Below are positions 2,084-49,319 of a stretch of 64,000 nucleotides of DNA, in pieces. The number at the start of each line of letters is the position of its first letter. Positions within the stretch are counted from its first letter, which is position 1. This DNA comes from Anaspis maculata (Eukaryota > Arthropoda > Insecta > Coleoptera > Scraptiidae): contig OX421961.1 of assembly GCA_949128115.1 (NCBI GenBank), forward strand, positions 102,656,363 through 102,720,362, read 5' to 3'. The notes under the pieces were generated by a model. That model was not told the DNA's origin, ran no database searches, and saw nothing but the letters and a program-made list of their open reading frames with translations. Position numbers and translations under genes: made by a program.

Positions 2084-3984
2084 CTGTGCCCTCAGCAGTA
2101 ATGATGTATTTACCGTCGAGAGTATGTATACTATTTTACTCACAACCATGTACTCAGCTTGCAGGATTACAGGCGTTCAAAAGTTGAAATCTGAAAATTA
2201 ACTTTTTGTCGTAACTTCCAGATAGGCCGATTAATTTAGCTGGAACGTGGTTCAGGAAATACTGATTAACACACTTATTGTTTGGTTAGATGCATATTTT
2301 GAAATTTCCCTTCTAAAGCTACCATTTCTTCACTTATGTCGGCAAGGGGTCACTTCCCGACCTCCTATTATAGGTATGTAATGAATCAATTACCATAGTG
2401 GTTGTGAGTAAACTAACTTCCGGTTGAGCAAGCCAATCATGAATCTCGATTTCAAACATATCGGCTGTGTATCGACTTACGTTACGTACCGTCGCCTACG
2501 TACCGATTACTTAGTGAACTCATCGTGCATAAGTGTTAATGTCATAAGAACCATCATCTTTATCGGTTTTTCTGAACACCAGTATGTTTGTTTTCACCTC
2601 TGCGATCAAAATGCAGGTTCACTGAATTCTTTCATCCAATTGAACCCCAGCAGCACATGGAAATATCAACAGGCGGGTAAGATACATCGGCCCATTTGGC
2701 GGATGCGCCGTTCAAGAACACGTCGGTAATCCCCGCGAAAGATGTAGGATTGTTAGAGAGTCGCCTCGAAGCCCATATGTCGCGATCAATGTGGAAGTTA
2801 CTAGAGAACTGGTGGCAACTTCCAGAATAACAATCGGAGGTATTTAAACACCGATGGATCGGCCGACAGACCGGTGTAAATTCAGAACGATAGCAGCGAG
2901 AATTAATTGGCGATAATCCAAGCGCAAGTGATCATTGACATGTATTTATAGTAGCACGCAGTAATAAACAGTGTTTACTGTCTCACAGTATTCACATGTT
3001 TTTTTTTCAGTGCCCAAACCTCTCCAAGAATAGCTCTTGAAGTTGCCATGTCCAATCAGTGCTTGGGTTAGGTAATGATCAATGTTTCTGCGTTTCCGTG
3101 TTTCCTTCTCACCCAGTTTTGCATATTCTGGATCATTATTTTAGTCCACCCCGTGTAGTCGTTCCACTGCTTCAGCCACTCTCTCATCATCCTTCCCCGT
3201 GCGCTTCAGTTTTATCTTCTTCATTCCGACGCTTCTCGTCTGTCTACTGTCTACCCGCAATTCCATGGGGTGAGATTCCTGCAATTGTTAGTATATTTTG
3301 AGTGTGGATGCGGTTCTGCATACAGATATTACTCTTATGGCCATATTTTCTACCACTCCCACGTTTCTGTTGCCAGTTCTTGTGTAACAGTTCCTGATGG
3401 TTGTCCTGTGCTCATATCGGGGCTCCATACAATGACGATTTAGAAAACCGCTGACGCTATGACCTTCCTTTTGCCTGCGCTTGGGCCCCTTATGTTCGGC
3501 AATATTGTCGGGAGTGCCTGTCCTGCATTGTTGGCTTTATCCGCGGCATGTTAGACAAGGCCCGAAGCTTATCACGGTTCGGCAAAATGTGAAATAGCGA
3601 AAAAAATTGTCCATCAAATCTAACATCGTAGCTTGATTCTTCATTATTTTCTGATCCAGAAAAACTCAATTTCAAAATAATTCATCGGTGAATTTGTCCT
3701 GTGGGCGATAGTTTTAAAATTTCATTCATTTCGGTGGGTTTTGCTCATGTTCATTCTTTGAGGCCCATGTGCAACTTGACGTTAAAATATAGTGGTTGGT
3801 GCCAAATTGTTCCTTAGACCATGATGAACAAGAATTGCGATGGTGGACATCTTAGACCCACGACTGGGCAGCCGGAAGGGGGAGGGGGAAGAGAATATTG
3901 ATGGGTTGTTATTTAACTATCTGTTATTTTTCGACTGTTATTTGAAAATAACAATAACAACCTGTTATCTCGGTTGAAATATAA

Positions 3985-4295
3985 CAGATACAAAATAACA
4001 GTTTACCCGGATCGTCGACGCCCGGCGCGATCAACTGATCAACAGTGAACGACTAAACAGATACAAAATAATATTTAGTTTACCCGGTTCTTCGACGCCC
4101 GCCGCGATCAACGGTGAACGACTAAACCACAGACTAAACCATTGACTGACTAAACAGATACAAAATAACAGTTCACCCGGATCGTCGACGCCCGGTGCGA
4201 TCAATGGTGAACCACTGAACCATAGACTGACTAAACAGATACAAAATAACACTAATAACAGTTTACCCCGATCGTCGACGCCCGGCGTTAGTTGT
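3985..4295. repeat. Four-copy minisatellite (73-97 bp units)
   Basis: Units start with CAGATACAAAATAACA at about 3985, 4059, 4156 and 4237. Each contains TTTACCCGGATCGTCGACGC or close variants, followed by GATCAACGGTGAACGACTAAA. Unit length varies because ACTAAACCA-type spacers are duplicated. The array lies entirely inside the hAT-like element. Confidence 0.8.
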
Positions 4296-4338
4296 TAGTT
4301 AGTTCTGTTACTTTTGCCTTGTGATATTGAGAATCCTG

Positions 4339-4468
4339 GGGCCCGTTTCATAAAACTACAAACGACAAATTACAAATGTATAACCTTGACGACTGATTGT
4401 TGCAACAATGGGTTACCAAGACTACACACACACTTGTAATTTGTCATTGTAGTTTTAAGAAACGGGCT
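4339..4468. mobile_element. 130-bp MITE with GCCCGTTTC ends
   Basis: GCCCGTTTCATAAAACTACAA at the left is matched by the reverse complement of TTGTAGTTTTAAGAAACGGGC at the right. CCTG flanks both sides (4335-4338, 4469-4472), giving a probable 4-bp duplication. No coding content. Confidence 0.6.
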
Positions 4469-6299
4469 CCTGGTTAATTTGTGAAACAACAGATTAACAG
4501 TATCTGTTATTTTCAACTGTTATTCAAAAATAACAGTAACAGGTTGTATCTGTTACGTAAAAATAACAGTTTTGCCCATTACTAGAAGAGAACGTGCTGA
4601 AGAAGAGATAACTATGTTTTCTCATGAACCAAAAAAGGTGGAATTATCAAATATGGCATGCATGCTCACTATTTCACGCCAATAAAGGTGCAGTAAACCG
4701 TTTTTGAAAATATTGGACCGATTCAGGAAAATCTCGATAAAAGTATTTTTCTTCTGAGAATGTGATCATCAAAAACCAAATTATTGACGAATTTGGAGGA
4801 CAAAAAGGTACAACTCACTCAATTTAGGTTAGTGCTTGGGTTAGTGGCCGCTTTGGCAAGAAAAAATGTCATTTTGGTATCTCACGTGGTTCTTCACAAG
4901 ACCAGTGCCACATGGTGGCTTATTATGAACCGGCAACGGACGGCTTTTATCCTCAAATGTATTGGTTTTTGGAGCCACCTGACCAAACTGTTAAATACAA
5001 GTTGAGAGGTTATTAGTTAGGAGTTATTTGAACCAAAGTGTGCTTATTTTCCACAAAAAATCCATCAAAAACGAATTTCTGATAGACATAACAAAGCTCT
5101 TTGGGGAGACCAATGGCCAAGAGTGACCGGAAAAGTCACGTAGGTAGGTGAATAGTGGGGTCTTATTTCCTGAAATAGAAGACCAAGTGATTTTCACCAA
5201 TATGCATATATTTCCAACCCCTCTAGCTGCCAAAAATATTATTGTGTAGTTTTTTGTATGTTTCCAACAGTAAAATTTTCAGAAAAAAAGTTTAATCGAG
5301 GAGCTCTCTGGAACGGTTCAGTATTTTCAAAAATGGTTTGCTGCGTTATCAATGGCATAAAATAGCGAGGTCGTATGCAATATTTCATAATTCCAACTCT
5401 TTTGGTTCATGAGTTAACATTTTTCATCACTTCTTTAGCACGTTTCCTGCCCCCTCCCCTCCTTCAGCTGCCCAGTCACGGATCTTAGATGACCATCATC
5501 GTGATACTTGTTCGTCATGGTATAAGGAGCAATTTGGCACCAACCACTATACTTTAACTCAACGTTGCAGATGGGCCTCAAAAAATGACCATGAGAAAAC
5601 CCACTGAGATAAATAAAATTTCAAATTAATTGCCCACAGGACAAATTCACCGATGAATTATTTCGAAATTGAGTTTTTCTGGATCAGAAAATAATGAAGA
5701 ATCAAGCTACGATGTTAGATTTGGTGAACAATTTTTTTCGCTATTTCACATATTGCCGAACCGTGTTATATCAGTGATCAAATTATATCCCTATAGGTAT
5801 TCACAGGTATATGATGTACTTCTGAGGAGGTATCGCTGTTGCATCAAGGTCAAAGTGGACTGGTTCGCATTTCATTCGTTCCACTAGCAACACTGCTTTT
5901 GATTTTTCAATAAGGTGCAAGTTCTAGACCGTTTTCCTGATCCATGAAGCTGTCATTCTCAGCGCCTCATTGGTTAGTCTTCTTAGGTCCCTTCTTCCCT
6001 TAGTCTTCAACTTGTCACCACCACCGCCAATATGCCACTGTTGTGACCCTAGTAGGCAAACTGATATGGGTCCCAGCACTAACCCCTGCGACACTTACGC
6101 AGTTCGCTTCATTCTTGTTCCAAAATCTATGTTGATGTACCACTCTTTTATGTAGCTCATCATTATTTTCAGAAGATAGCGGGGAAATTTTTGCCTTTGA
6201 GTCCCTGTCACTATTTTTCTCCACCGCGCTGAGTTGAAGGCCTTTCCAATATCTAGTGTCACCAGAGAACATAACTTCTTAGTTTTCAGTTCTCTTATC

Positions 6300-9200: not shown

Positions 9201-10361
9201 GCTGATTGATTGTCCTGTGTTCACTACTTAGCATGCGGTTGTATAGGTTATTAGCGGCTATCTCTTGGCATCTGCTCTCTGGTGGTCCCATCCTTCCTTA
9301 TCGACGTTCCGCGTCCACCGTTAGTAGGTACTTCTACTATACTACTGCCGAGGCAGAATGGTAACTACTTCTCTATTTTTTAATCTAATGGCAAATAATT
9401 GATCGCTCTTCTAATGGAACTGTTACTGAATGAGATGCTAAGGCGGGGGCCCGCGCGCCATAACGGTCAATGTGGCGCGCTGCTGCGCGAGGCCCTTTAT
9501 TGTTTATGGAATTTACTAATTAAACCTTGTACGCGGCCCATCAACCAAACGACCAAGCGAAGGAATTTTGATAAAAACGAATTAGGCTTCTGTTTCTTTT
9601 AGAGCAGGTTTTATACAGCTTCAAGTTTTAATGTCAACTCCAAAGTGCTCAATTCATATCGCCTAACGCAAGAATGATTACTTCAAAAAAGGTGTAACAG
9701 AACCATCCAGTTGCCCGCAAGCGCGTAATGAACCTGCTGAGGGCTAACATAGTCCTGCGTGCATCCCTAGTCACGCGAGCTGGTGTATTAGCTGGTGTAT
9801 TACAATGAGAATGTAAAGGTGCCGTGTTCACCGCTGAGCATTCAAAAAACGTTATAGAATTGCGTTCAACTGCTACTTCATCAATTCTTTTGGTGCCTTA
9901 ATTTGTGGGTAGTTCCCTCGGAGCATACCGATCGAACGATTAAAAATGCCTGTATTTAAGCACGCTGAATTCTTTGTCAGATGCATTCATCAGGGTTAAA
10001 TTATTTTATTCACTGTAAATTTCTATCACTCTGTCATATACTTACCAAAAAAGCTTTGGTTATACGTAACTCCGAGTCAGAAAATCCATACAATTTTAGA
10101 GATCGTAGGCCAAGTATTATAAAGCAGTTCGACCTCCGGTTTTCCATCATTCATTATGTATACCTACAATTTTACAATATTAACAAATATAATCACATTT
10201 TACAATAAACTCAACTGAATAAGCCAAAAAAATTCATCGAAATACTTATCTATTAAAATTAACCGTGCCCAATGTAGAACTAGAATAACCACGTTGAATT
10301 TGGACACCTATAACTTTTGAAAGAAAAATTTGGTCGATCTAGGTTTTTCTGCGTTACGTCG
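6300..10361. other. Stretch without recognised genes
   Basis: No convincing coding region was found on either strand. There are ORFs of up to 113 codons (7179-7520 plus), but they show no domain and no plausible splice structure. A GAT trinucleotide run lies at 7066-7093 and gives a histidine tract in a minus-strand frame. No tRNA-like structure was recognised. Confidence 0.5.
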
Positions 10362-10397
10362 CACATAGGGGTATTTGACTCAAAAAGGTGATCAAAA
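10362..10397 (+). repeat. Transib left terminal inverted repeat
   Basis: It starts CACATAGGGGTATTTGACTC. It matches the reverse complement of 14170-14205 at 34 of 36 positions. The first three bases CAC are shared with the recombination-signal heptamer. Confidence 0.95.
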
Positions 10398-10554
10398 TTA
10401 TTTTTGTTTCTAAATCGATGGAAATAATTTTTAAAACCCATTTTTTATTTACCTGCCTTGTTTCAAAAGGCACTAACCGAAAGCCGTCTTTCCAAATTGG
10501 TAGAAATCTATGAATTGTCAAATAATTGACAATTTTGAAATAAATATAAATATA

Positions 10555-11326
10555 CAGCTGGTCCAGTTTTTAATACAATAATTTTGAGAGATGATAGAGA
10601 ATCAAAAGTGAGGCATTCTTGTAGATAAAATATTTCAGAAGTGAATAATATCGGAGATATAGCCCTTCAAAGTTGTAAATAAAAAATAGTTTTTTTAGCG
10701 GAACTTTAAAACCGTTCAACAGATTTTGCTCAAATTTGAATCAAAATTTACCTAAGCAAGTCTTTATCGAACGATAGTAACGCGTTTTGTCAAAATTATC
10801 CAGGGGCATAGATAATAAGGCGTACCCCTCTTTTTGCCCCTCAATTTTTCACACCCTTGAAAATTTTCCACATTTGTTTATATTTTTGAGTCTTATGTTC
10901 ACTTTATAAGAAAAAGTTACCTTTGCAAAATTTTCATTAGAGGCTTTGTTTTCGAAATATTTGAGTTTGAAATTTTGGAAAATATCTCGGAAACATCACT
11001 TTCAAGTGCTTTAAAATTAGAATCCAAGAAAACTCATGAAATCTCAACTGAAATAAGTTCTCTAACCTCGGGTTCCACCAAACTTTTATCAACGCGATAA
11101 CTTTATCACTTTGATAGAAACTAAGCAACTGGCCATCCTATTGGCTGGTGCATAGCAGCTATCAGCGTGATAGATTTAATCTGCTCTTGAAATTTTGGTG
11201 GAACCCGAGGTAGGTGTTTTAAGTAGGATAAACAACCATTTTTTCTCTTTTTTTTGGGAAAGTTTCTTCAATTTTTGATTCTCTGTCATCTTCCAAAACT
11301 ATTGTGTCAAAAACTGGACCACCCTA
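10555..11326. mobile_element. 772-bp fold-back element nested in the Transib
   Basis: The ends are CAGCTGGTCCAGTTTTT and AAAACTGGACCACCCTA (inverted), flanked by TATA on both sides. The interior follows the same order as one arm of the giant palindrome at 56146-58836. Examples are ATAGCCCTTCAAAGTTG, an AACCGTTCAAC box, a polypyrimidine TACCCCTC block and a TTAGAGGCTTTGTTT block. It is therefore a member of that family. It lies downstream of the transposase stop codon. Confidence 0.8.
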
Positions 11327-11565
11327 TATACTTACTCAGCCTTTGCATAAGGAGGTAAGGTTATAGTTTCACATCTACACCATTTGACAGTTTATCTCTT
11401 CATACTTATTCTTATATACCTACCGTGTATTTATATCATGCATACCTGAAGTATTAAAAGTTATGATGATATTAGCAAGTGTATTTGCAAAAAAAATATA
11501 AAAATAATGCTGATTTTTCGTAAGAAAATGAAAGCGAAAACGAGAAAAATGAAACAAATATCGAT

Positions 11566-13374
11566 TCAATCATCTGATGACGTTTCACCTGATGTTGTTT
11601 CATCTGATGATGGCACATCATGGAGTAACTCATCCAATGCAGATTCGTCACATTCAGTAACACCATCAGATGACTTCATCAGTGCAATTGCTTCTTTACT
11701 GAATGGTTTCGTGGTCTTTCGTGGCATCGGTCTCAAGCTGGATATCAAAGGGTCGGAAGTCAATAAAAGTCGATTCAGGACATCCATATTGCATGACACT
11801 CTAGAAAATTTCCTTGCAAAGTCTTGCCGGTACTTTCTGAAGTGCTTATTTCGAGCTTCTGCAGCTTCCTCGGACAATTGTCCAATCGGAAGTAAGGCGT
11901 GATCTATAATGGTAGCTCCGTGAACGAGAACTTTATGAACTGTTGGTGACATTGGATACCAAGGATATAATTCGACGTACAATTCAGCTGTTTCACGAGC
12001 GTACCCGGAAAATTTTTGCGTATCCAATAGATGTTCACTAGAAATTGCCTCTAGAATAACTCCAAATCTTTTCACCAAAGTTTCTTCTACGCCTGTTATC
12101 CTAGCTGAAACCTCTGCATCAGAAAAGAATCTTCGTGAAGTGTTGCCATCATTGGTATTTCCGAAACCGGTCTTTGGAATGTCAACCAGCAAGCCCAATT
12201 CTGTTCGAAACAACTCTTGCACTTCCTTTTTTCTTTCGGCAACCGCAGCTTTTTCAGATGCAGATCTTGCTTGCCATTTACGAAGAGGAATCTTGTATGA
12301 AAGATGTGAAAGAGTTTCAAAGAAACGGATTCTCGCATGTAAAATTGATAAGCCAAACTTCAGAGCTTCAGGATTCACTTCTTTGAAAGTCAAATCATTA
12401 AAATCCTTGGATGTTGCCCCACAGAGGTAGCATCTCATTGTTGATGAAGTATTAGTCGCGGCATTACATACCTTACCATCTACCATGGTAAAAAGAAGCG
12501 TATGATGAACGGTGTTATTTATCAGTACAGTATTCTGTAGCTCTTTTATTTGGCAGTCAATGTATTCGATTTCTTCGTTTGTCACATCTTTCGTCTCATG
12601 AATAAATCTTATCCGAATCGGCCTGCAGTATCTTGGAGAAGATGGTACTGGATTTTGCCAAACAACCTTTTTCACTCCGTCAACATTACTGACCAATTGA
12701 ACGGGAACAAAAGAGCTTTGAAAAATATTGGCGTCACTATCCGTATCGTTTTGAAATTTTTGTTTGAACCGATTCTGCTGCGATCCGTCACAGCCCCATT
12801 TAGAAATGAGCTCCAAGTTTCCGTTTTCTTCAGCAGTGCACTTTTGCAGAACTTCCTCCAAGTACTGACAGAGTCGATTCGCAGTATGGTCAAGAAGATC
12901 CTGGAGTCTCAACTCAGCACAAGTTTCTGTTACTCGGTATGCTTCACGACTTGGATAGCAACTCATCTTAGCTTTTTGCAGAACAGAGTAACTGGGGAAA
13001 GAGCGTTTAGCGGTTTTTCTAACGATATTGTATTGCCTTCTTGTTAGATCAGCTTCTACAAACATCGACAGCGCTTCTATCAGAGAAATTTGGTGCTCAC
13101 GCGGTTTTTCTTTCATGGATAATAGCAATTTTGAAGCTCTTGTAGGTGACTGAGTTACACTCTTAACGATTTTTGAAGCATCAACGTTTCCTGAGGCCCG
13201 CAAACTCATTTGCGCTGCAAATGTTAATGATTCGCAAGGGAAATCTCTCAAATTGCGTGTTACTCTCCTTTTACTACACTCGGACAACTCTTCAAATGGC
13301 TTTTTTGGTCGACCAGGTAGATTAGAAATAGAATTGACTAGCAGTGGGACTTTTACGGTACCTCTCAGCCACAT
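11566..13374 (-). CDS. Transib transposase (RAG1-core-related, 602 aa)
   Basis: It cuts and joins transposon ends in the nucleus and is the only gene of the element. Read from the minus strand, the protein shows KWGCDGS (Asp196), FTMVDGKV (Asp299), a C315-x2-C318 knuckle in CYLCGATSKDFN, H480-x4-H485 in TVHKVLVHG, and EEAAEARNKHF with Glu506. The order and spacing match RAG1's D600, D708, C727/C730, H937/H942 and E962; the final Glu aligns through the EARNK/ESGNK pattern. NTNDGNTSRRFF resembles the RAG1 NGNFARK region. The C-terminus is acidic and Ser/Asp-rich. The listed start is the first Met of the open frame. The same frame continues upstream through FKAKWTQASR, past one TAG (13438-13440), and stays open to at least ~13620 (ECPIKSVDKKLQYMEERL). 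The real N-terminus is therefore probably longer, and is either broken by that stop or joined by splicing. Confidence 0.93.
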   Translation of the reverse strand: MWLRGTVKVPLLVNSISNLPGRPKKPFEELSECSKRRVTRNLRDFPCESLTFAAQMSLRASGNVDASKIVKSVTQSPTRASKLLLSMKEKPREHQISLIEALSMFVEADLTRRQYNIVRKTAKRSFPSYSVLQKAKMSCYPSREAYRVTETCAELRLQDLLDHTANRLCQYLEEVLQKCTAEENGNLELISKWGCDGSQQNRFKQKFQNDTDSDANIFQSSFVPVQLVSNVDGVKKVVWQNPVPSSPRYCRPIRIRFIHETKDVTNEEIEYIDCQIKELQNTVLINNTVHHTLLFTMVDGKVCNAATNTSSTMRCYLCGATSKDFNDLTFKEVNPEALKFGLSILHARIRFFETLSHLSYKIPLRKWQARSASEKAAVAERKKEVQELFRTELGLLVDIPKTGFGNTNDGNTSRRFFSDAEVSARITGVEETLVKRFGVILEAISSEHLLDTQKFSGYARETAELYVELYPWYPMSPTVHKVLVHGATIIDHALLPIGQLSEEAAEARNKHFRKYRQDFARKFSRVSCNMDVLNRLLLTSDPLISSLRPMPRKTTKPFSKEAIALMKSSDGVTECDESALDELLHDVPSSDETTSGETSSDD

Positions 13375-13437
13375 TCGATTCTTCGCTAAAAATGAGTTCG
13401 TATTTCTAGAAGCTTGAGTCCACTTTGCTTTAAATTG

Positions 13438-13630
13438 CTATTTAAAATGGGACAAAACCTTTCTTAGCACTGCCAATTCACATTTTATCATGGCGAATAG
13501 ACGCTCTTCCATGTACTGCAATTTCTTGTCGACCGATTTTATTGGACACTCTTGTACAAGCATGAAAAGGGCTCGTCTTGCAAAAATCTTGAAATTAGCG
13601 GCATTTTCTATCAAAAAAGAAAAACAACTT
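13438..13630 (-). pseudogene. Probable lost N-terminal part of Transib transposase
   Basis: In frame with the 602-codon ORF, the minus strand reads KIFARRALFMLVQ, KSVDKKLQYMEERLFAMIK, VLRKVLSHFK, then TAG, then QFKAKWTQAS leading into the annotated Met. The open, basic, helix-like character suggests former coding sequence. An AAATAG acceptor-like string at the stop leaves open that an intron ends there. Confidence 0.55.
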
Positions 13631-14169
13631 TAGAAAAAAATCCTATTTTCAGCTAACACGAAGATAAAAATCATTGTGAAGACGATTCGCAACTTTTCGC
13701 AACTTTTGTTTTTTTTATGAGCATTACTAAAGACCGTTCTTTAAAATAAAACTGAAATTACACCTTGGACGAACTTGGAAGGATATTATATTTGCCAGTG
13801 TTAGTGACGATAAAGGGAAAAAAATAGGTGCAAAAATTGCTGTTATCAAAATTGAGAATCTAGGACAGTTGCCATCAAAATGGAAATGTAAACGTTACTA
13901 TACGTACTACATACCTTCTGCAGTTTGATCCATTTCAAAAGTTTGGGGTAAAGCTCTTGACATTTATTCACGAACTAAAACACAAAGGGCTGAATCTTGA
14001 TGCTACGGCGATAAGCGAAACGATTATCGTGTTTTTGCGCGTTTGATATTTTTTGCCATGGCACTCTGGAGGTTTTGTTAGCAAAAAAAGCTGATAAGGA
14101 ATGTAAAATGTATTGAAGTACGATATTAGGCCGTTGTTTTCAAGAAAATACAGATTTTCGATCTTAGAC

Positions 14170-14205
14170 TTTTGATCATCTTTTTGAGTCGAATACCCCT
14201 ATGTG
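14170..14205 (-). repeat. Transib right terminal inverted repeat
   Basis: It ends CCCCTATGTG, immediately followed by the CGTCG duplication. It is the partner of 10362-10397, and the transposase 5' end lies on this side. Confidence 0.95.
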
Positions 14206-14210
14206 CGTCG

Positions 14211-14960
14211 GTCAGTCTTTTTCCAATTTTTTTAATGATGGCTTTCGCAAAATCGCCAATTGTTCCAAAACCAAGCGGGACGAAAATATGGTTGGAGTTG
14301 AGGAAAAGGTATTTGGCGGTTTTTTCCGCCTCGGCTTGGTTTGCAGCTGACCCCAGGAGACCAGGGGCGGAGGGGCGGTAGGGGCGGTGCGCCCCGGGCC
14401 TCGAGACCTCAATCATCTGATGGGGCCCTTAATTCCTCTTGTTTATGGAAAACGGAAAATGGAAATTCTGCAAAAAATTGGGATGAAATCCAAAAATTGC
14501 AACTTTTTCCCTCGATGGTAATTTTTTTCGCATACTTATTTGATACTTGGGTGAGTAACATTGTTTTTCTTTTCTTCCATCTTCAAGTTACCTTGGCAGG
14601 CCCCATGACAACAGGTTTGAGGGCCTACACACGCGGCAATAAAGGTGTCTGTATCACGGAACCTCTAAGAATTATTTTCGCTTAAGGCTTTAGGGGCACC
14701 GACCCCGGATATTAGAGTGTAAGGGGTCTCAAGCCTTTGAATTTTGTATCTTCTTATTTCTATTCAAAAGAGGGAAAAGACAAAACAACAAAATTATCTC
14801 GTCTGCGCGCTGCATGCAGGTAGTAGAAATCCATATTATTCCTAATTTTGTATATACGAGTAGTTTTTAGCATTGAATCAACATTCTAAATCCAATCCAA
14901 CATCCAAAGCTGGAACCGAAAACTTCTTGTAGATACTGGTGGTCAATGGCATAGCCAAGT
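14211..14960. other. Non-genic stretch with a GC-rich repeat-like block
   Basis: At 14350-14430 there is a run of GGGGCGG-type words (AGGGGCGGAGGGGCGGTAGG) followed by CGGGCCTCGAGACCTC. This resembles the GC-rich ends of hAT-type elements, but I could not find a matching opposite end or duplication. No coding region was recognised. Confidence 0.35.
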
Positions 14961-15969: not shown

Positions 15970-18440
15970 CGATAGAGAACGCAGAATGAATGAATATGAT
16001 TGGTCCAGGGAAAAAATTGATATATTCAGCCCAGCTCCTGCTTATTGTTCAGCGCCATCCTCAGTTAGCTCCTTATTGTGTGAAAAGCTTCAGCTCATAA
16101 GTAGGTATCTAAAGATCACGTGGTGCCAAATTGCCTTCATTTCTTATAAAGAAATATAATTTTTTTTATGTATTTCAATGTTTTTTCAATGCGCAAATGT
16201 ATACGACCTCTAAATTGCTTGCCGTTACACCGATTTATTATTCATTCTAAGATAGGGTAGGGGCATAAGGGGGCAACTTTGAGAAGGTCGGGAAATTATT
16301 TTCTAAATTTATTCCTGGACTATTCATTTTGGGAAGCTGTCAACATTTTTAGAAAGTCATTTTTTAATGATTCTTGGTGGTCCCACAATCGATTGAGATT
16401 CAGCTCTTTACATTTTGTATCTTCACTCGTATTTTGACTGAAGCTGGACAACGTAAGGCCTTTTTAAGATCTTGCCTCTGCGATTATTTGTATAGTCCGG
16501 ATGGTTATAGCGACAAAAACAGTTCGAACTTTAAATTTTATGCACGATAAAGAGTGACGCCGTTTGGTATACTTGTTCACCATGCCTCGAGGTACAATCT
16601 GAGAAGAGACGCTCCCAGAATGGTCCCTCAGAGGCCAATTCCTCGTTTTCTTGTATGAAGAAAAATCTGCCTTTCCATCAATTTTTTTCCCAAAGTGCAA
16701 GGAATCGGATGGACATGGAAATAAATGATGTAAAAAAGGTTTCCAATAAGTGGTTTGAATCCTTCACGATAGTTGAAACAATGTCAGGCGGTGGTTCGAT
16801 ATAATAGTTCTTAAATTGGAACTTCAACTTTGCTCGCTAGGCCCCTAAGAGACTAACCTGGGGGACGTCTCTCCAGATTGTACCTTAACTCATGGGTGAA
16901 AAGGTACAACAAACGGCACCACAACTCTGTCACAAAATGTAAGGTTGAAACGGCTAACTGCCAGATTAGTGGGCGCTCATTCCCTATCCCCAATCGCATT
17001 ATTTGAACATCATCTCTATACCTAATTCTGAAGCTGGAAGCTTCCAAGAGTTCGATGTATATTGGGATAATAAAATTGATCTTCTTATTGAGTTTTAAAA
17101 ATCCTTTCAGACGTTCAGTGGCACTTGAAGATACGTAAGGTTTTCTGGTATACCTACTGTGAATATTCTGCTATTCTGCCCAAATCACCATTCCCCTCTG
17201 ATATTTTTTTCCACAGAACCGTTGCACCATGCACTGATTTATTAATTCTAACCGTTACTGCTGATAATGGAATAAAGGAGGATCGCATCAACAATTTCTT
17301 TTAGGCTGCAAGCGTTTATCCCAGATAATCCAGCAAATTATGCATCACCATCGCACCCATTCCCCTATATGGCGCTTATAAGCGCAAACATGCACGCATA
17401 CACTGCTTAATGTATGAGAAGCACCATATACCCAATTAAAAATGGGGCTTTGGGTATAATACCCTGATCCTGATGCCTTCGATAGTACATATGCATCTTG
17501 CAATTTATATCTTTTATGAGTGATAATGACTTACGTAATTATCGTGAATGAGTCGCGGGTAGTTTTTCAAAAAACCGGAATATATTTCCATATCCAGTTT
17601 CGAGAGGAGCCTTACAGAGAGCGCATCATATCATGCCTTGGAGCAGAAGCCATCAGCCGGATGGGTGATATCGACGCTGGATTAGACAAGACCGCATGAT
17701 TGAAACATGACCGGTTGATTAGGGCTGCTGGCGAAGCTATAGAGCATGGTGCTTTTTTTTACTGATTATGAACTCTCCGATATAGTATGGGGCGCCGTCT
17801 TCATCGTCATCATCATCATCATGATCATCAAGAAATAAGGCAGGATGTATGGTGCAGCTGCAGCGCCTGCCTGCGCGCCCCGGCATGTATGTACATACGC
17901 GTATAGTGGTATACGAAAAGAAGAGCAGTCTGCGTTGAATATTAAATATCTATCTTTATTTTCAGTATCGTAACGTTCGAGTTGGTAGCTTATTTATTGT
18001 GGCCGGACCACGGACAGCTCCTGAGAACTGAGTGCAGATTATACGTCCGTTGGCGTCATAAAATAGCGAACTGTGACATTCGAAATAAAGCAGTGGTCGC
18101 ATTTGATTATATGCAAGCGCCTCGCCAGATATGCAGTTCATATCTTGTAGTGCCAAGCGGCGGATTACTTACACAGTGAGAGTTACCCCAGGAAGCTGAA
18201 TTTTGGAACTATTTAATTTGTATCAAAGGATTCTAACGGCTAAAGGGATCGATTCTATGTTGGAGATTATAGACCGCCGAAGTGGAGATCAATGGTGATG
18301 GAGCCTATCTATAACAATCTCTATATCTATACCAAGGGATCAGAGTTCCGAAACCTTAGGTAGCTGCGAGTTTTGACAATTTAAAAGTTTGCGTCTTGTA
18401 CCACCCGAAACATTCTCAAGAATAATGATCCTTGGCTGCA
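15970..18440. other. Stretch without recognised genes
   Basis: No domain-bearing ORF, RNA gene or paired repeat was recognised. Short ORFs of 60-80 codons are of the length expected by chance. A CATCAT-rich trinucleotide patch lies at 17800-17832. Confidence 0.45.
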
Positions 18441-18464
18441 TTTGGGACTTGTTACATCCCGATT

Positions 18465-18972
18465 ACTCTCCCTCTTTTTTTCCCCATCCTCCCATTTCCC
18501 CCTCTATTGTTCTCCCATTCTTCCTTCTTTCCTTCTTTGCTTCCTTCCTTCCTTTCTTCCTACCTTCCTTCGTTCCTTCCTTCCTTCCTTCCTTCCTTCC
18601 TTCCTTCCTTCCTTCCTTCCTTCCTACCTTCCTACCTTCCTACCTTCCTACCTTCCTACCTTCCTACCTTCCCACCTTCCTTCCTTCTCTCCTTCTCTCC
18701 TTCTCTCCTTCTCTCCTTCTCTCCCTCTCTCCCTCCCTCCCTCCCTCCCTCCCTTCCTCCCTCTTCCTTCCTTCCTTCCTTCCTTCCTTCCTTCCTTCCT
18801 TCCTTCCTTCCTTCCTTCCTTCCTTCCTTCCTTCCTTCCTTCCTTCCTTCCTTCCTTCCTTCCTTCCTTCCTTCCTTCCTTCCTTCCTTCCTTCCTACCT
18901 TCTCTCCTTCTCTCCTTCTCTCTTTCTCTCCTTCTCTCCTTCTCTCCCTCCCTCCCTTTCTCCTTCTCGTAG
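18465..18972. repeat. TTCC / TTCCTACC / TCTCC compound microsatellite
   Basis: The block runs through TTCC repeats, TTCCTACC repeats, TTCTCTCC repeats, CCCT runs, a long uninterrupted TTCC run (about 18765-18895) and again TTCTCTCC. All three plus-strand frames are open only because the repeat lacks stop codons; the LPSFLPSF-like ORFs are artefacts. Confidence 0.95.
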
Positions 18973-19244
18973 CTAGAATAGGGAGAATATACAGTTTAAA
19001 AGTGGACAAAATGAGATTGAAGAGGTATTGCAAAGGCTCTGTGAGAACACTCGAGCAATCACGGACAAGAAAGCCAGGAATCATGTCCTCTCCAGCAGTA
19101 ATATTGTTGGGATTTCGAAGGAATATCTCCTACCTTCCTACCTTCTCTCCTTCTCTCCTTCTCTCTTTCTCTCCTTCTCTCCTTCTCTCCCTCCCTCCCT
19201 TTCTCCTTCTCGTAGCTAGAATAGGGAGAATATACAGTTTAAAA
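18894..19244. repeat. Direct duplication of the satellite edge and its unique flank
   Basis: A segment from TTCCTACCTTCTCTCC through the unique sequence CTCGTAGCTAGAATAGGGAG and on to CAGTTTAAAA (18894-18998) occurs again, essentially identical, at 19133-19244. The near identity suggests a recent duplication, or unequal exchange seeded by the satellite. Confidence 0.85.
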
Positions 19245-19249
19245 TAGAT

Positions 19250-20650
19250 TCTCAACCATTTTGAAGACTAATAAAAACTAGTTCGATTGAAAGAAACCTA
19301 GTTGACAGACTTACTACTTGAAAGACCTGCTCAAAGCCTTGCCAAGAATCTTTTCAACACCCAACGCTGACCTAGTATCAACACAAGAGCACTTTCCAGG
19401 TTCAGGAAAATCAAGTAGTATTCAACAGGACTAGCATGCAGTCAAAAAAAATAAATCAACAGTTGATGAAGCAATAGTTTGACCCATCAATCTATTTTGC
19501 GGTTGTTGAGGCAGAATCCTTCGCATTTGCAGAGTTTGAGGAATTTCATGCCATCAGACTTTCTGCAAGAGCAAATTCGAGTTCTACAGTTTGTTTTGCA
19601 GCTGGAAGCTCCGATTTGGGGACACGAGTGAATAGTGATCAGTATTATGGTTATCTCCAGAGTGGACCGTGCCTGATAATGGCTTTTCTTTATGTGAAGC
19701 TGTATGGCATTGCTGGGTGGGAGGAAACGACTCCGGTTTCTCAACAGCCGCAAACAAAAATTTTCGAGCGTTTTTACCGACAGGTGTCTATGTCAGTCTT
19801 GAGCTGTAAGAAATAAGACTCATTGTGACATAATGAATAAGTCAATAATAGGGTCCTCTTGCGAAAAATAGTATTTTTTGATACAAGAGCGCGTTTTCAG
19901 GTTCGAAGCCGTGTTTTCCATCATGAGGCGTAGTCATTATACAGCGAGAGAAAAGAAATGGTCCTCATTTCTTCACAAGCATGAAGTTTGAATACGAGAC
20001 GAAGTTGAGTGATGCAAATCGTGCAAGTGAAGGAATGGACCTCAAAATGGACATTCCATGAGAGTAGTATTGACCGGTGGCAACCGACCATGGAAGTGGA
20101 TGAATGTCTTTCAAATAATGCAACTGTTACAAAATTTATTATTTTTCTCTTATTTCACAATAATTTTTATTCCACATCCACTCATAGTGTTCCATTCCAC
20201 AGATTGACCAGTATATCTCAAATTTCGCTAGAAAATCTAAGCATCAAAAGTGAATCCAGAATTCAAAGTCATGGTCATTTTAGAAAATTTACAGCAGCTT
20301 AAAAATTGGAACAAGAAGAAAAGTCGACCTACCAGTATCTACGCCACTGGATACTTTTGTTGGAGTTCTTCTTTATGAAATCATGGACACGTACCTAAGA
20401 ACTACCATTATAAAATTTGCGTTTAATCGGTAAAGCGGTTAAAAAGATACGGCAGAAAACAATCCGATTCGCCTCATTGGACGCGATCTTTAACTATCGT
20501 GGGTATCTTACTTCCGGTCAATATTTCGCCTTGGTAACAGGCATTTTCAAATTCAGAAGGGTCTATTTAGTCTAGAAACACTTGTTACCAAAATGTTATA
20601 TGAAATGCCTCTAGGAGGTAGTTTGAGGCGTTTTTTCAAATTTTTGTACT
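19250..20650. other. Stretch without recognised genes
   Basis: No coding region, RNA gene or element end could be supported here. The fold-back described next probably starts somewhere in 20480-20660, but its left tip was not identified. Confidence 0.4.
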
Positions 20651-21108: not shown

Positions 21109-24100
21109 CGCTGTGCTAGAATGATAGTAAGATAACTCAAAATTTTCGATTTTGGGATTATTTCAAATTCTGTAGCTCCAAGCTATTCTCTACCTGGTAA
21201 AATAGTCAAATCACTCAGAATCATCATGGAAGTGACTTAAAAAAAAATATCTCACTGTTATAATTATCAATTTTTTCAGCAGCTCTAGTCTAATACTCGG
21301 ACATCTTGGAGTGTCCTTTTTTTTCTACTCAAAAATAGATCGAATTTGCCCTTGCATTCTGGTATAATACGAAGACATTTAAACATGTCCCAATTTTAAA
21401 ACAAATCTGATATGAAAATTTCAAGTTGTCTTTGTTTTTCATGTTATCCTAGTATTTTACTGCTGATGATATTTTATGATATCTTACTCTTATACCAAGA
21501 ATCCGATTGATTTAATAAAAGTCTTGAGGTATTTTATTTTAACTCACTATTGTACCAGAAATACTCCTCATGCATTTGTAACATATCTTACTTTTGAAAG
21601 TTGTCTCACTATTTGACCAGAAATGTTCTATAAATTGTTTGACATGACCCAATAATTTCAACTTATCTTAGTATTCCACTGTACACTGTCATAATTTCGC
21701 AAACCACAACTGATTTTACGTTGGGTAAAACGAAACGACTCTTGTAACAAAACAAAAAACAAAGAAATGGATGGGTGCAGAGGCAGACGCATATTGGCTC
21801 TAGCTGCTGCTAAGACTGCTGATCGTGTAAGTGGAAGAGTTGTTCCCTGGAATCAAAGTGTCGTAAGTATGAAACTCGGCATCAAACTAACCTCACAATT
21901 ACATTCTTTCCAATTTGATTTGATTCTGATGAGGGGTGTTATTTTTCAGATTGTTGATGATTTACCGTTGCTCCCTACGATAAACTACGAGACATGTACA
22001 TTTTTCATTAACAATACCATGGAACGACAAGAAACTTTGAACAAATACTCTGATGAATGCAAGCACATTTTCGAAATAACCGACAACGAGATGGATCTGT
22101 TATCACAAACTGTAATAAGCTGTACCGACAACAACGATTATGATGAAGTTGTCCATCTTCATGCATCTTCAAATGAAGAAATCGAAAGAGAAACAAATCA
22201 ACAATCTATATCATGGAACAATGATCAAAACATATACTCCAGTATTGACGTTGATATTGAAAGTCCCTTCGATGATAGCGATGCAGACAAGGACTAGGTA
22301 TGATCCTGCGAATGATGAAGGTAATGAAAGCAGCAGCTCCAGAGAAGAAATTGGAACGGTGGATGACAGCAGAAAACCCAAAAAAATTATACCAAGAACA
22401 AGGGAGTGGAAACAGAATGTTAAAAGGCGAAAAGTCAATACTGGACAACAATATTCGACAACAACTGGGAATTTGAAGAGAAAAAAAACATTACAGGCAG
22501 GCTGTGGAGAAAATTGCAGGTTGAAATGCAGTGAAAAGATTGATGAGGAACGAAGGATGAGCATTTTCAACAGCTTCTACGATCTTAGTGACAAAACGAG
22601 ACAACGGGATTTCATCAACACTTGTATGGATATCGCCGAAGAGCGGAAGTACCGAAAGCCAAAACCCAACAGTCATCGTGCACTGAATTATTCCTATTCG
22701 TTTGACGTCAATAATGAGAAGGTCCGTGTGTGCAAATTATTTTTCAAGTCTACTCTGGACATAAGTAACACAACAGTAAGTACTGTGGTGAGAAAAAAAA
22801 ACAGAAAATGGAACTGTTACTCCCGAATTTCGTGGTACACACAACAACCACAAGAAACTCGACAATGAAATGTTATCAGAGGTGATCAGTCACATCAATT
22901 CATTTACCAGGATTGAGTCCCATTATTGCCGAGCGGACAATAAGCGAGAATTCATCGACGGAGGACTATCCATTTCTTCTATGTACAAGCTCTACGTAGA
23001 AATTCAAGAAAAAGTTCAGAAACCAGCCGTTAAACTTTCTATGTACTCTCACATTTTCAACACCAGATTTAATATCGGTTTTTTCAGACCCAAAAAAGAT
23101 TTGTGTCCTCTTTGTGATGAGTACGACAATGCGAATATTGAACAGAAAAAACTGCTACAAGCGAAATACGACATTCATCAAAAAGAAAAAAAATTGTCGA
23201 GAAAAGAAAAAGCCAATGACGCAAAGTATGCTGCAGATCATAAAGATACGAATGTCTTATTTTGCTTCAATCTTCAAGCTGTTATTCCTCTGCCAGCTGG
23301 CAATGTTTCCTCGTTCTACTACAAAAGTAAACTGAATGTTTTTAATTTCACCATTTTTGATATTGCCGAAAAAGCAGGTTATGCGTTTACGTGGAATGAA
23401 GCGGAAGCTCGAAGAGGTGCTAACGAGATCGCCAGTTGCATTCATACCTTTTTGATAGAGAACTGTCTCGGCAGAAACGTCACCTTTTTTTCGGACAATT
23501 GTGCAGGGCAAAATAAAAATCGCTTTGTCGTTGCAATGTATCTGCATGTGATGAAAAATTTTGACATACGCTCAATCACTCACAAGTTTCTCATCGTAGG
23601 GCACACTCAGAACGAAGGTGACTGCATGCATTCTTGCATTGAGACTGCTAAAAAAAGAGCGTTATTGAGTGGACCAATCTATGTTCCTCAACAAATTGAC
23701 ATGCTAATCCGTTTGGCTAAGAAAACTGGTAAACCATACACTGTCAATCAGTTAAAATGCAAGGATGTATTTGACTGGAAGTCATTGGCAGACATTTATA
23801 AAAATATCAACCTGAACACGAATCGAGAAAAAATCAATTGGAACAGCATAAAAGTTATCCACGTAAACAAGGATCAACCAGATGTTTTCCATTACAAAGA
23901 GTCTTATGAAGATGCGATATACAAAGACGTCCGTCTAACAATGAAAACAGATGAATATCCATGTCTTGAAAAAGCTTACAAAGAGAAACCAAAGATGACC
24001 TTAAAAAAAAAGAAAGTATTCTGTCATTGTTGCCGCACATCCCCGCTGAGTACCATCAATTTTATAAGAACATCAGAGCCCATAGAAAAGGACATCAGCC

Positions 24101-24847
24101 TGAAGAAAATGGAGAAACAAGTGACTAAGATGACTCCTAAGTACCAAGAAATTATAACGAATATAGAGTGTGTTTTCCGTTTTTAGATTTTATAACCATT
24201 TTGTTGAGATTTAATATTGTTTTAGAATTTTCTGTTGAGTTGAATAAAAATGTCTAGCAAGTACTTCGATACTTTTTCTATTTTGATGCCATAATATAAA
24301 AAATAAGAATAAATGTTTTGCTCTTTATCAGCTATCCACATGCCATCGCCATTACAGTTTTTGCGCTCTATATTATCTTCAACAAACTTTTTAGGAAATT
24401 CATAATAAGCGCAAATCGATAACAAACATTATTGTAGTGCCATACAATATTTGAAGACAACTACAAAGAATATGTTGAACAAGGCTATACATGCCATGCA
24501 ATACTCGGACAACTTACAAAAAAAAAGAGATAAATTGAAAATCGCTTCACGAATTCATGACGAATAGTAGAATAACTTACATAAAAAAACGGACAACTTT
24601 CAATAGAGCCATTATTTCTGGCGATATACAAGGATATGTTCACTTTTTATTTTTTTTCTCATTGAGTGGAAGTTATTTCTTGATACATTTTTCACAGGTA
24701 CATAAAGGACGCTATGATACACCTAAAAATTGAAAAAGTCTTGGAAATTTTGAGAGGAAGAGTGTTTTTTGTGCATCTGAAATGTTTAAGTGGCGATTAC
24801 TCGAAACTATGTTTTTTAAGTTGTCTTACTATCATTCTAGTACAGCG
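21109..24847 (+). mobile_element. 3.74-kb DNA transposon, ATAT duplication (Sola-like)
   Basis: The termini CGCTGTGCTAGAATGATAGT (left) and its reverse complement (right, 24814-24847) match at 31 of 34 bases. They are flanked by ATAT on both sides (21105-21108, 24848-24851). The host fold-back reads continuously across the junction once the insertion is removed, which confirms the borders. Subterminal regions hold degenerate repeats of the terminal motif (for example CTTATCTTAGTATTCCACTG and TATCCTAGTATTTTACTG), plausible transposase-binding sites. One transposase gene lies inside. A 4-bp duplication is known for Sola elements, but assignment to that superfamily is inference. Confidence 0.85.
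21767..24186 (+). pseudogene. Transposase-like ORF with DNCAGQNKN motif, two frameshifts
   Basis: Three overlapping frames cover one protein. It starts MDGCRGRRILALAAAK at 21767 and contains a possible 87-bp phase-neutral intron (GTAAGT at 21863, TTTTTCAG ending 21949). The first frame change is near 22297, where GGTA appears as four extra bases. The second is at an A9 run (22793-22801). The middle part has CGENCRLKC and VCKLFFKSTLDIS. The last part (22870-24186) has a CPLC knuckle, FNLQAVIPLP, FFSDNCAGQNKNRF and VGHTQNEGDCMHS. In relatives I remember, the first motif is F-D-LQ, so the Asn here (residue 134 of the last ORF) would replace a putative catalytic Asp; Asp209 and Glu249/Asp251 would be the others. 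This is the DUF7869-like family of insect and cnidarian repeats, probably a Sola-type transposase. The copy is broken. Confidence 0.75.
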
Positions 24848-40127: not shown

Positions 40128-41102
40128 GTGCGCTTCGCTTAAAACAAAAACTCTATCCATTAAAGCGATGGCAACTCATAATCATCATGTACTTTCAATA
40201 GACAATCGAAATGTATCTATCAATTTTGGAATTTTGACGTTTCTCGAGATCGCCATCTTCATCTTAATCATTTTTCGGCAGATCCACTTGGGATTTAGGG
40301 CCCATAGTCACTTTTGATGGACAATCGGAATGCACCTGTCGCATTTAAATTTTGATATTCCCCGAGGCCATCATTTTGAACAGTTACATTTTTCAACCGA
40401 TCCATTGAAATTTTGAATCAACATGCCTATACTTTTATTCGACAATCGAAATGCATCTGTCAAATTTTGAATTTTGCTGTTTCCGAAGGCCACCATCTTG
40501 AACATTTACATTTTGATACCGAAATAACCCCCATGATCAAAACAGATACACCATCAATCGCTTACGCCTTTGTTCAACTGACCAGACAATACCCATCTAC
40601 ACGCGTCTTGTTTTAAAACATATAACCGCCACAGTTGAGGCAGAAAATCCAAAACACCATAATTTGGACAAAATGATGACAATTATTATAAGGACAAAGT
40701 AGTACAAGGTGTTCTTTTGATAATGCTATAGCAATGTGTAATTCAATTTCAATGGCTTCTGTCAATCAAAGTAAGCAGCTGATAGCATGACGGCATTCCG
40801 TAGCACAACTTCAAGTTTTGTTTGACACTACAATTGTATAGTTGTCAGGCGTCAATATTGCGAACTCGGGATATGGGACAGAATGAAAAACTGCAAGTTG
40901 CAACTTGAAATTTTTATTTCAAAATTAAAAGTTTGCATCCATTTCTAAACCAATTGCTTCTGTCTAAGTCCAACTCCATATTATGATGAATGAATGGTTA
41001 CCATATTTCCTAGAAGAGCCTCAATTTGAAATGAAGCTTTTGCCAGATGTTACAGCGGGTCGAGATGCAACTCAAGTGTAGACATTTCTTATCCTCTTCT
41101 TA
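40128..41102. repeat. Dispersed repeat X, copy 1, with internal ~120-bp tandem units
   Basis: About 975 bases from TGCGCTTCGCTTAAAAC to GTAGACATTTCTTATCC recur at 47304-48303 with only scattered differences. Within it, three imperfect units of about 120 bp each start around GACAATCGAAATGYATCTGTC (near 40200, 40320 and 40440) and alternate with GCCATCWTCTTGAAC strings. No ORF longer than 67 codons. Termini show no inverted repeat; the class is unknown. Confidence 0.8.
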
Positions 41103-46841: not shown

Positions 46842-47065
46842 CAGGTGTCCCGAAAATACACCGACAACATTCTAGGGTAGCTTCCTCTCATCAAAACAAG
46901 AAAAAAAGTTCCAATGAACATGGGCACGAAAACGCTTCCTAAGGGAGCTACAGGCCCCTAAAGGTGGGACCCTGAAGATGGTGTTTATTTAATATTTCCG
47001 AAACCGTTCAAGGGAAATCAATCAAACTTGACACATTGATTAACTTTTATATGCCCAACAAAATT

Positions 47066-48560
47066 TGAATGCCTAGCAAAAATGAAGTTGCTTTGAAATG
47101 GTTTTTCTTTCACCTTGAATATCGTATTTAAAAAATCAGCATTACTGACCACGTTTTCATACATTCAAACTCAAATATCTCGCAAACGATGCGTCTATCG
47201 AGGTTGAACAGAGGAACTTTTTTATTTTGGTAGAAAACTCCAATATTTCATAATTTCTTGTTAAATTTAAAAACGATTCACATTCAAAATGTTAGGGTAA
47301 TTTTTGTGCGTTTCGCTTGAAACAAAGACTCTATTCATTAAAGCGATGGCAACTCATAATCACAATGTACCTTCAATAGACAATCGAAATGTATCTGTCA
47401 AATTCTAAATTTTGACGTTTCTCGAGATCGCCATCTTCATCTCAATCATTTTCCGGCAGATCCACTTGGGATTTGGGGCCCATTGTCACTTTTGATGGAC
47501 AATCGGAATGCACCTGTCGCATTTAAATTTTGATATTCCCCGAGGCCATCATTTTGAACAGTTACATTTTTCAACCGATCCATTGAGATTTTGAATCAAC
47601 ATGCCTATACTTTTATTCGACAATCGAAATGCATCTGTCAAATTTTGAATTTTGCTGTTTCCAAAGGCCACCATCTTTACATTTACCACATTACCACATT
47701 TACCACATTTACATTTTAATACCGAAATAACCCCCATGATCAAAACAGATACACCATTAATCGCTTACGCTTTTGTTCAACTGACCAGACAATACCCATT
47801 TACACGCGTCTTGTTTTATAACATATAACCGCCACAGTTGAGGCAGAAAATCCAAAACACCATAATTTGGACAAAATGATGACAATTATTATAAGGACAA
47901 AGTAGTACAAGGTGTTCTTTTGATAATGTTATAGCAATGTGTAATTCAATTTCAATGGCTTCTGTCAATCAAAGTAAGCAGCTGATAGCATGACGGCATT
48001 CCGTAGCACAACTTCAAGTTTTGTTTGACACTACAATTGTATAGTTGTCAGGCGTCAATACTGCAAACTTGGGATATGGAACAGAATAAAAAAAATGCAA
48101 GTTGCAAAACTTGAAATTTTTATTTCAAAATTAAAAGTTTGCATCCATTTCTAAACCAATTATTTCTGTTTAAGTCCAACTCTATATTATGATGAATGGA
48201 TGGTTACCATATTTTCTAGAAGAGTCTCGAATTTGAAATGAAGTTGTTGCCAGATGTTACAGCGATGTCGAGATGTAACTCCAGTGTAGACATTTCTTAT
48301 CCTCCTAGCATGTCTAGCATGCCTAGCAAAAATGAAGTTGCTTTGAAATGGTTTTTCTTTCACCTTAAATATCGTATTTAAAAAATCAGCATTACTGACT
48401 ACGTTTTCATACATTTAAACTCAAATATCTCGTAAACGATGCGTCTATCGAGGTTAAACAAAGGGACCTTTTTTTTTGGTAGAAAACTCCAATATTTCAT
48501 AATTTCTTGTTAAATTTGAAAACGATTTACATTCGAAATGTTAAGGTAATTTTTACCCCC
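47066..48560. repeat. 245-bp direct repeats bracketing repeat X copy 2
   Basis: Both copies start at GCCTAGCAAAAATGAAGTTGC and run through CAAATATCTCGYAAACGATG to GTTARGGTAATTTTT, with few differences. Copy 1 of X at 40128 is not flanked by this block. The direct repeat therefore arose with, or was already present at, this insertion. Confidence 0.8.
47304..48303. repeat. Dispersed repeat X, copy 2
   Basis: Collinear with 40128-41102, including the three ~120-bp internal units. It differs by small changes such as a local ACATTTACCACATT expansion at 47680-47710. Noncoding. Confidence 0.85.
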
Positions 48561-49319
48561 ACACCTCAGCCAGACTTACCCCTGGTGAATTATTTTGGAA
48601 ATAATCTTGCCTAACTTTGTTGGGCACAAGAAGGTTAGTGGATTTGTCAAGTTTGATTGATTTCTTTTGAACGATTTCAGAGATATTGAATAGAAACCAT
48701 CTTCAGGATCCCACCTTTAGGGGCCTGTAGCTCCCTTAGGAAGCGTTTTCTGACCCATGTTCATGGGAACTTTTTTCTTGTTTCGATGAGAGAAAGCTGC
48801 CCTAGAACGTTGTCGGTGTATTTTCGAGACACCCTGTATATTTGTATTGAAGACAAAAGTCTGCACCCATTGCATTATTTTATTAAATGTGAATGTAATA
48901 AAACCAGGTAATTTTTTGCGACACCCTGTGTATCATGGACCTAGAAAAATTTTCATGGATAAATTTGAAAAATTCAGCAAAAATTCTTCAAAAATCGGTT
49001 GTTTTTTTTTTAAATTGGTTCAGGGATAAGCCGGCTAGTGGGGGGGTCAATCTTAACGTGAACACCCTGTACGTCCGTCGTCCACTATAGGCGATTTACA
49101 TTTCAAACCGCCACCTGCAGTAGAGGTCGAGGAATTTTTTGAGAAGGATTCAAACCGGAACGTCTAGCAGCCTGGTAGGTACTAGTAGATGCCTGCAATA
49201 CCTACATCACTGACATGAAATTTGACAAGTGAAAATAACGTGAAAGGCGATTTGGCTACCTATTTGATGTTGTGCTTAGCGTATTCAGCACTTCAGCAGG
49301 CCACTAGCAGATCTATTCT

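Follow-up and report, generated by a model that had tools for sequence, protein, structure and literature searches.

The window analysed here, a stretch of 64,000 nucleotides (64 kb) of contig OX421961.1 from the genome assembly of the beetle Anaspis maculata (GCA_949128115.1), contains a copy of a Transib transposon, an element with a RAG1-related transposase, whose parts are listed in Table 1. An initial annotation had described it as a structurally complete Transib with ends like those of the recombination signal sequence (RSS), and its account of the borders was borne out. The 36-bp terminal inverted repeats (TIRs) headed by CAC, as in the Transib superfamily, read CACATAGGGGTATT[T/C]GACTCAAAAAG[G/A]TGATCAAAA at the left border and the same in reverse at the right border, with 34 of 36 bases identical. 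Even when up to three mismatches are allowed, the 26-base core of this end occurs in the window only at these two sites, against a shuffle expectation of 0.00 (n=100). Directly outside both ends stands the exact CGTCG duplication that had been annotated; agreement of five bases by chance would have a probability of about 0.0012 at this composition. Its length and CG-rich sequence are those of a Transib target site duplication (TSD), for which the consulted part of PMC4735498 gives a preference for CGNCG.

Table 1. Features of the Transib element and its surroundings (positions in the window)
Feature	Position	Strand	Remarks
Whole Transib element	10362–14205	-	3844 bp; TIRs and TSD, automated end search (L001, the same stretch), empty sites
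TIR, 3' side of the gene	10362–10397	+	Heptamer CACATAG; same end type in 16 further pairs
TIR, 5' side of the gene	14170–14205	-	Heptamer CACATAG
TSD, left copy CGTCG	10357–10361		Abuts left end; single CGTCG in 10/10 empty repeat copies examined
TSD, right copy CGTCG	14206–14210		Abuts right end; same empty-site comparison
Mariner-like TIR insert	10553–11328		776 bp; in 3' untranslated part; TA flanks 10551–10552 and 11329–11330
Second, foldback element inside the insert	11066–11210		
Predicted coding exon 1	13915–13933	-	19 nt, begins ATG; ATG and GT donor kept in second copy L021
Predicted intron	13608–13914	-	307 nt, GT..AG; kept in L021 with small indels
Predicted exon 2 with transposase	11566–13607	-	Interrupted by in-frame stop
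In-frame TAG	13438–13440	-	Sense codon in second copy L021
602-aa frame	11566–13374	-	GRP (NBD-like) region and complete DDE/zinc core: D196, D299, C315, C318, H480, H485, E506

The element was inserted into an interspersed repeat (window 10267–10361 and 14206–14303), of which 38 other copies, 75–83% identical, were found in the genome with a query in which both flanks were fused across one CGTCG, the two halves in the window itself being excluded. The ten best of these 38 matches were inspected base by base and all carry one CGTCG at the exact position. The initial annotation had proposed this check, which is applied here to paralogous copies of the repeat rather than to alleles of the locus. 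The ten copies are continuous on both sides of the CGTCG, the one exception being a 2-base indel that lies four bases left of it. The borders and the duplication are genuine.

The protein encoded on the minus strand has the annotated length of 602 aa and the annotated catalytic and zinc-binding residues. D196, D299 and E506 pair with the catalytic triad D126, D225 and E436 of HzTransib from Helicoverpa zea (numbering from the consulted part of PMC6941560), these published numbers being shifted by 17 throughout relative to the aligned chain positions. Conservation was counted in the 120 listed relatives (of 789), among which D196 is retained in all, D299 in 119 (one gap) and E506 in 119 (one Asp), and C315, C318, H480 and H485, the two histidines being separated by four residues, are each retained in all 120. 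The protein aligns with the HzTransib chain in both sequence and structure, at 41% identity across 469 structurally aligned residues, and the element belongs to the Transib superfamily. HzTransib (PDB 6pqn, 6pqr, 6pqu, 6pqx, 6pqy and 6pr5) has the catalytic fold, the triad and a 5-bp duplication in common with the window element; in the portions of the literature consulted, it is given as an element of 3518 bp with the TSD GCTCG (PMC1852546) and with ends described as symmetric (PMC8289069). An N-terminal extension bearing a GRP motif, absent from the solved HzTransib chain, sets the window family apart, as do its predicted intron and its heptamer CACATAG, and the window copy itself is broken. 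The N-terminal GRP region resembles the nonamer-binding domain (NBD) of RAG1, and an NBD-like GRP region has already been published for Transibs (PMC9435367). When a profile built from just the N-terminal 112 residues was run against the PDB, the RAG1 NBD was not among the hits. Two RAG1 fragment matches were equalled or beaten by 3 and 1 of 3000 shuffles, and some structural alignments begin at residues 22–31 facing 393–411 of RAG1 chains; on their own, such matches and alignment starts are weak evidence for an NBD.

The transposase gene is not uninterrupted, and here the description of the element as structurally complete holds for its ends and fails for its protein. In the same frame upstream of 13374, conserved Transib sequence reaches past the in-frame TAG, and 103 of the 120 listed relatives align across at least 25 of the 30 residues preceding it. 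The column of the stop holds a residue in 107 relatives (Ser in 68) and a gap in 13, and opposite the initial Met of the 602-aa frame none of the 120 has Met (111 other residues, 9 gaps). The splice sites and exon 1 of the predicted gene are conserved in the second copy (L021), and the translations of several relatives, by inspection, enter an apparently T-rich tract immediately before the position of the predicted acceptor, where such a tract would be expected. From these alignments, the gene extends beyond the 602-aa frame, and the TAG severs the N-terminal region. The window copy probably no longer supplies a working enzyme. The alternative, that the internal ATG at 13374 yields an active 602-aa transposase and the copy is still autonomous, has in its favour that the whole solved enzyme is retained, the HzTransib chain aligning from residue 101 of the frame (structurally from 93), and that seven of seven key residues are present. 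We consider it improbable, given that this ATG is not a conserved start in any of the listed relatives, that the N-terminal region kept in 103 of them is missing here, and that translation would start earlier, at the predicted exon-1 ATG, and run into the TAG.

Two further readings of the locus would deny that it is a Transib insertion at all. A domesticated RAG1-like host gene would fit the length of the open frame and the conservation of its catalytic residues; the ends, the exact duplication, the many relatives with the same ends and the private stop codon all speak against it, the empty paralogous sites rule it out, and we regard it as extremely unlikely. Assignment to a different superfamily whose ends are likewise headed by CAC (CACTA or hAT, for instance) is refuted by the HzTransib sequence and structural alignments, and its probability is practically nil. 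What the locus very probably records is one cut-and-paste insertion of a Transib, since decayed, into an older repeat copy, within a family that is mostly non-autonomous and whose recent movement, if any, was probably in trans. Several points weigh against this account. The empty sites are paralogous repeat copies (~80–82% identical) and not empty alleles of the locus. The division into exons and intron is predicted, mobilisation in trans is presumed, and, with 73 of 356 candidates scored in the protein search described below, an intact member could be missed, although a close one should rank high. The profile comparison with RAG1 proposed by the initial annotation also came out unfavourably, as the Pfam RAG1 model PF12940 scores 14.5 bits and does not reach the gathering cut-off of 25, in a group for which Pfam is weak (PF12940 matches in 11 of 41 alignment members). 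The Pfam label PF26100.1 is precomputed on many Transib relatives (P0007, P0014 and others) and is absent from the Pfam scan of the 41 alignment members. NCBIfam matched none of three proteins, and no relatives were confirmed in searches of viral_contigs and genome_contigs.

Copies of the same family were sought in the genome of 757.8 Mb (50 contigs). Allowing at most two mismatches, the 20-base end pattern matched 94 times (a count that takes in sister families) versus 0 for the backwards control, and convergent end pairs within 8 kb (rows with at most one mismatch, counted by hand) numbered 17 including the window copy. The initial annotation had proposed a search for further copies with these ends, and each of the 16 other pairs has an exact 5-bp duplication, of the form CGNCG in 12 and reading GAGCG, CATTC, CGCTG and CAGCG in the remaining four. 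The CATTC duplication, far from the CGNCG preference, belongs to the same-family insertion L054/L055 (C5:52196350–52198081). The derivatives compared (L035/L036, L038, L041 and L042/L043) are internally deleted: they preserve the first 729 bases wholly or in part, together with short 3' segments, and have lost most of the gene. The genome protein search returned 82 matches, and the only others at 89–95% identity among the candidates scored are three pieces of one copy (L021, contig C4), which carries stops and frame-breaking indels, including a 49-bp deletion. At its 5' end the same terminal bases directly abut CGACG, and the flanking sequence differs from that of the window copy; the opposite end is missing, so that its duplication cannot be checked.

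The window copy also bears a nested mariner-like insert, without which the element would measure ~3.07 kb. The inverted repeat of the insert is 49 nt long (10559–10607 and 11273–11321). Five derivatives of the same family (L034, L036, L038, L041 and L042) cross the insertion site without it, and L021 carries approximately its first 16 bases and then breaks off, which makes the insert older than the split between the window copy and L021. Elsewhere in the window (56149–58834) lies a large palindrome with arms 84–95% complementary and mariner-like ends, 70–71% identical to the nested insert.

Compared with the vertebrate system, the window transposase is ~17% identical to RAG1, and the element has no RAG2-like frame, near-symmetric ends and no 12/23 layout that stands out. 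Apart from three frames antisense to the transposase, which were not domain-searched, the element contains no further stop-to-stop frame of at least 120 aa; it thus has the single gene of a Transib and not the adjacent RAG2-like gene of RAGL/ProtoRAG elements. The RSS-like character attributed to the ends holds for CAC and for 5 of 7 bases of the heptamer (CACATAG versus the canonical CACAGTG) and does not extend to a nonamer at 12/23 spacing, none of which stands out. At best a nonamer is matched at 6 of 9 bases, with a spacer of 11, a score that random ends reach in ~7% of cases over six spacings and in ~4% for spacers 11–13, and the nonamer reading does not clearly exceed chance.

Sister Transib families in the same genome carry more than one heptamer. 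Automated ends with exact 5-bp duplications were obtained for L002–L006, L014, L016–L020 and L028–L030, of which L029 is L014 found again and L028 spans 6842 bp and holds a further insertion; L032 has a long span and an inexact duplication. The automated search for a TIR pair with a duplication found none for L021–L027, L031 and L033. L022–L024 end near CACAGTG, and CGCCC stands on both sides of L022 (by eye, from comparison of copies). The heptamer is CACATAG in the window element, L002–L004 and L006, CACAGTG in L005, L014–L017 (L015 via the wider stretch L028), L019, L020, L022 and L030, and CACTGTG in L018. The CACATAG sisters (L002/L003/L004 and L006) share with the window element the heptamer, the terminal bases GGGGTAT and 5-bp duplications, and their proteins are 59–62% identical to its transposase. 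In contrast to the window copy, L002 has an open frame of 698 aa with seven of seven key residues, and its family matches the 3'-side end of the window element over the initial 17 bases; L003 contains one stop and L004 three. The L002 and L003 copies are 99.6% identical and so moved recently. The CACAGTG families have frames of 684–747 aa where measured, with near-identical copies (L016/L017 99.9%, L019/L020 99.7%, L022 versus L023 and L024 99.5–99.6%, L029 versus L016 and L028 98.7–98.9%); L019 has N at the expected second His of the zinc site. In a tree of 22 rows, some of them partial (L006 has 485 residues), all CACATAG rows fall into one supported group (100/99), together with the CACAGTG row L005 and relatives lacking end data. 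The tree leaves the place of the window element inside this group unfixed and is therefore compatible with one or two origins of CACATAG.

Starting from the observed borders, duplication, empty site and catalytic residues, and borrowing the cutting chemistry from HzTransib, we propose that a RAG1-like DDE transposase paired two CAC-headed ends, nicked at CAC and formed hairpins on the flanks, thereby freeing the element, which would then have been joined to a staggered 5-bp CG-rich target. The parent copy would already have borne the mariner-like insert in its 3' part, and the copy has decayed, its private in-frame stop removing the N-terminal region of the transposase, the family surviving mostly as internally deleted, non-autonomous copies. 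Since both transposase-bearing members found are broken, any recent movement would probably have occurred in trans through a sister family with the same ends, for which the L002 family is the candidate on account of its shared end bases and its 698-aa frame.

Taken alone, the window element is an unremarkable representative of a familiar group and contributes a single well-documented Transib copy. The presence in one assembly of several Transib families with known ends and duplications, two main heptamers and near-identical copies makes the link between enzyme and heptamer testable. The two heptamers occur in sisters that share the catalytic module, both with near-identical recent copies, and this pattern could reflect a switch in how the transposase reads positions 5–7 of the heptamer, with CAC fixed. 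We put forward only tentatively, as somewhat less probable than its converse, that such a switch took place and that the window family, itself broken, now relies on transposase that the sister family with matching ends supplies in trans. If true, the heptamer switch would be a natural experiment on the joint change of a RAG-like enzyme and its signal. For the origin of V(D)J recombination, on which the initial annotation had expected the window element to be informative, the CACAGTG sister families are closer to the RSS heptamer and are better material.

Other features of the window lie apart from the element. The frames at 21695–24186 surround a DUF7869 (PF25273) protein, for which 505 relatives lie at E ≤ 0.001; among the 120 listed, matches reach at most 58%, and those carrying labels are from insects. 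These frames may belong to another mobile element. A tandem array with steps of 8 and 12 bases and a C/T-rich strand occupies 18408–19250. The stretches 40128–41027 and 47306–48233 repeat each other at 93–98% identity, the second lying within a foldback (46844–48833), and a further foldback at 3570–5768, with arms of 173 and 152 nt, encloses a tandem unit that contains GATCGTCGACGCCCGG.
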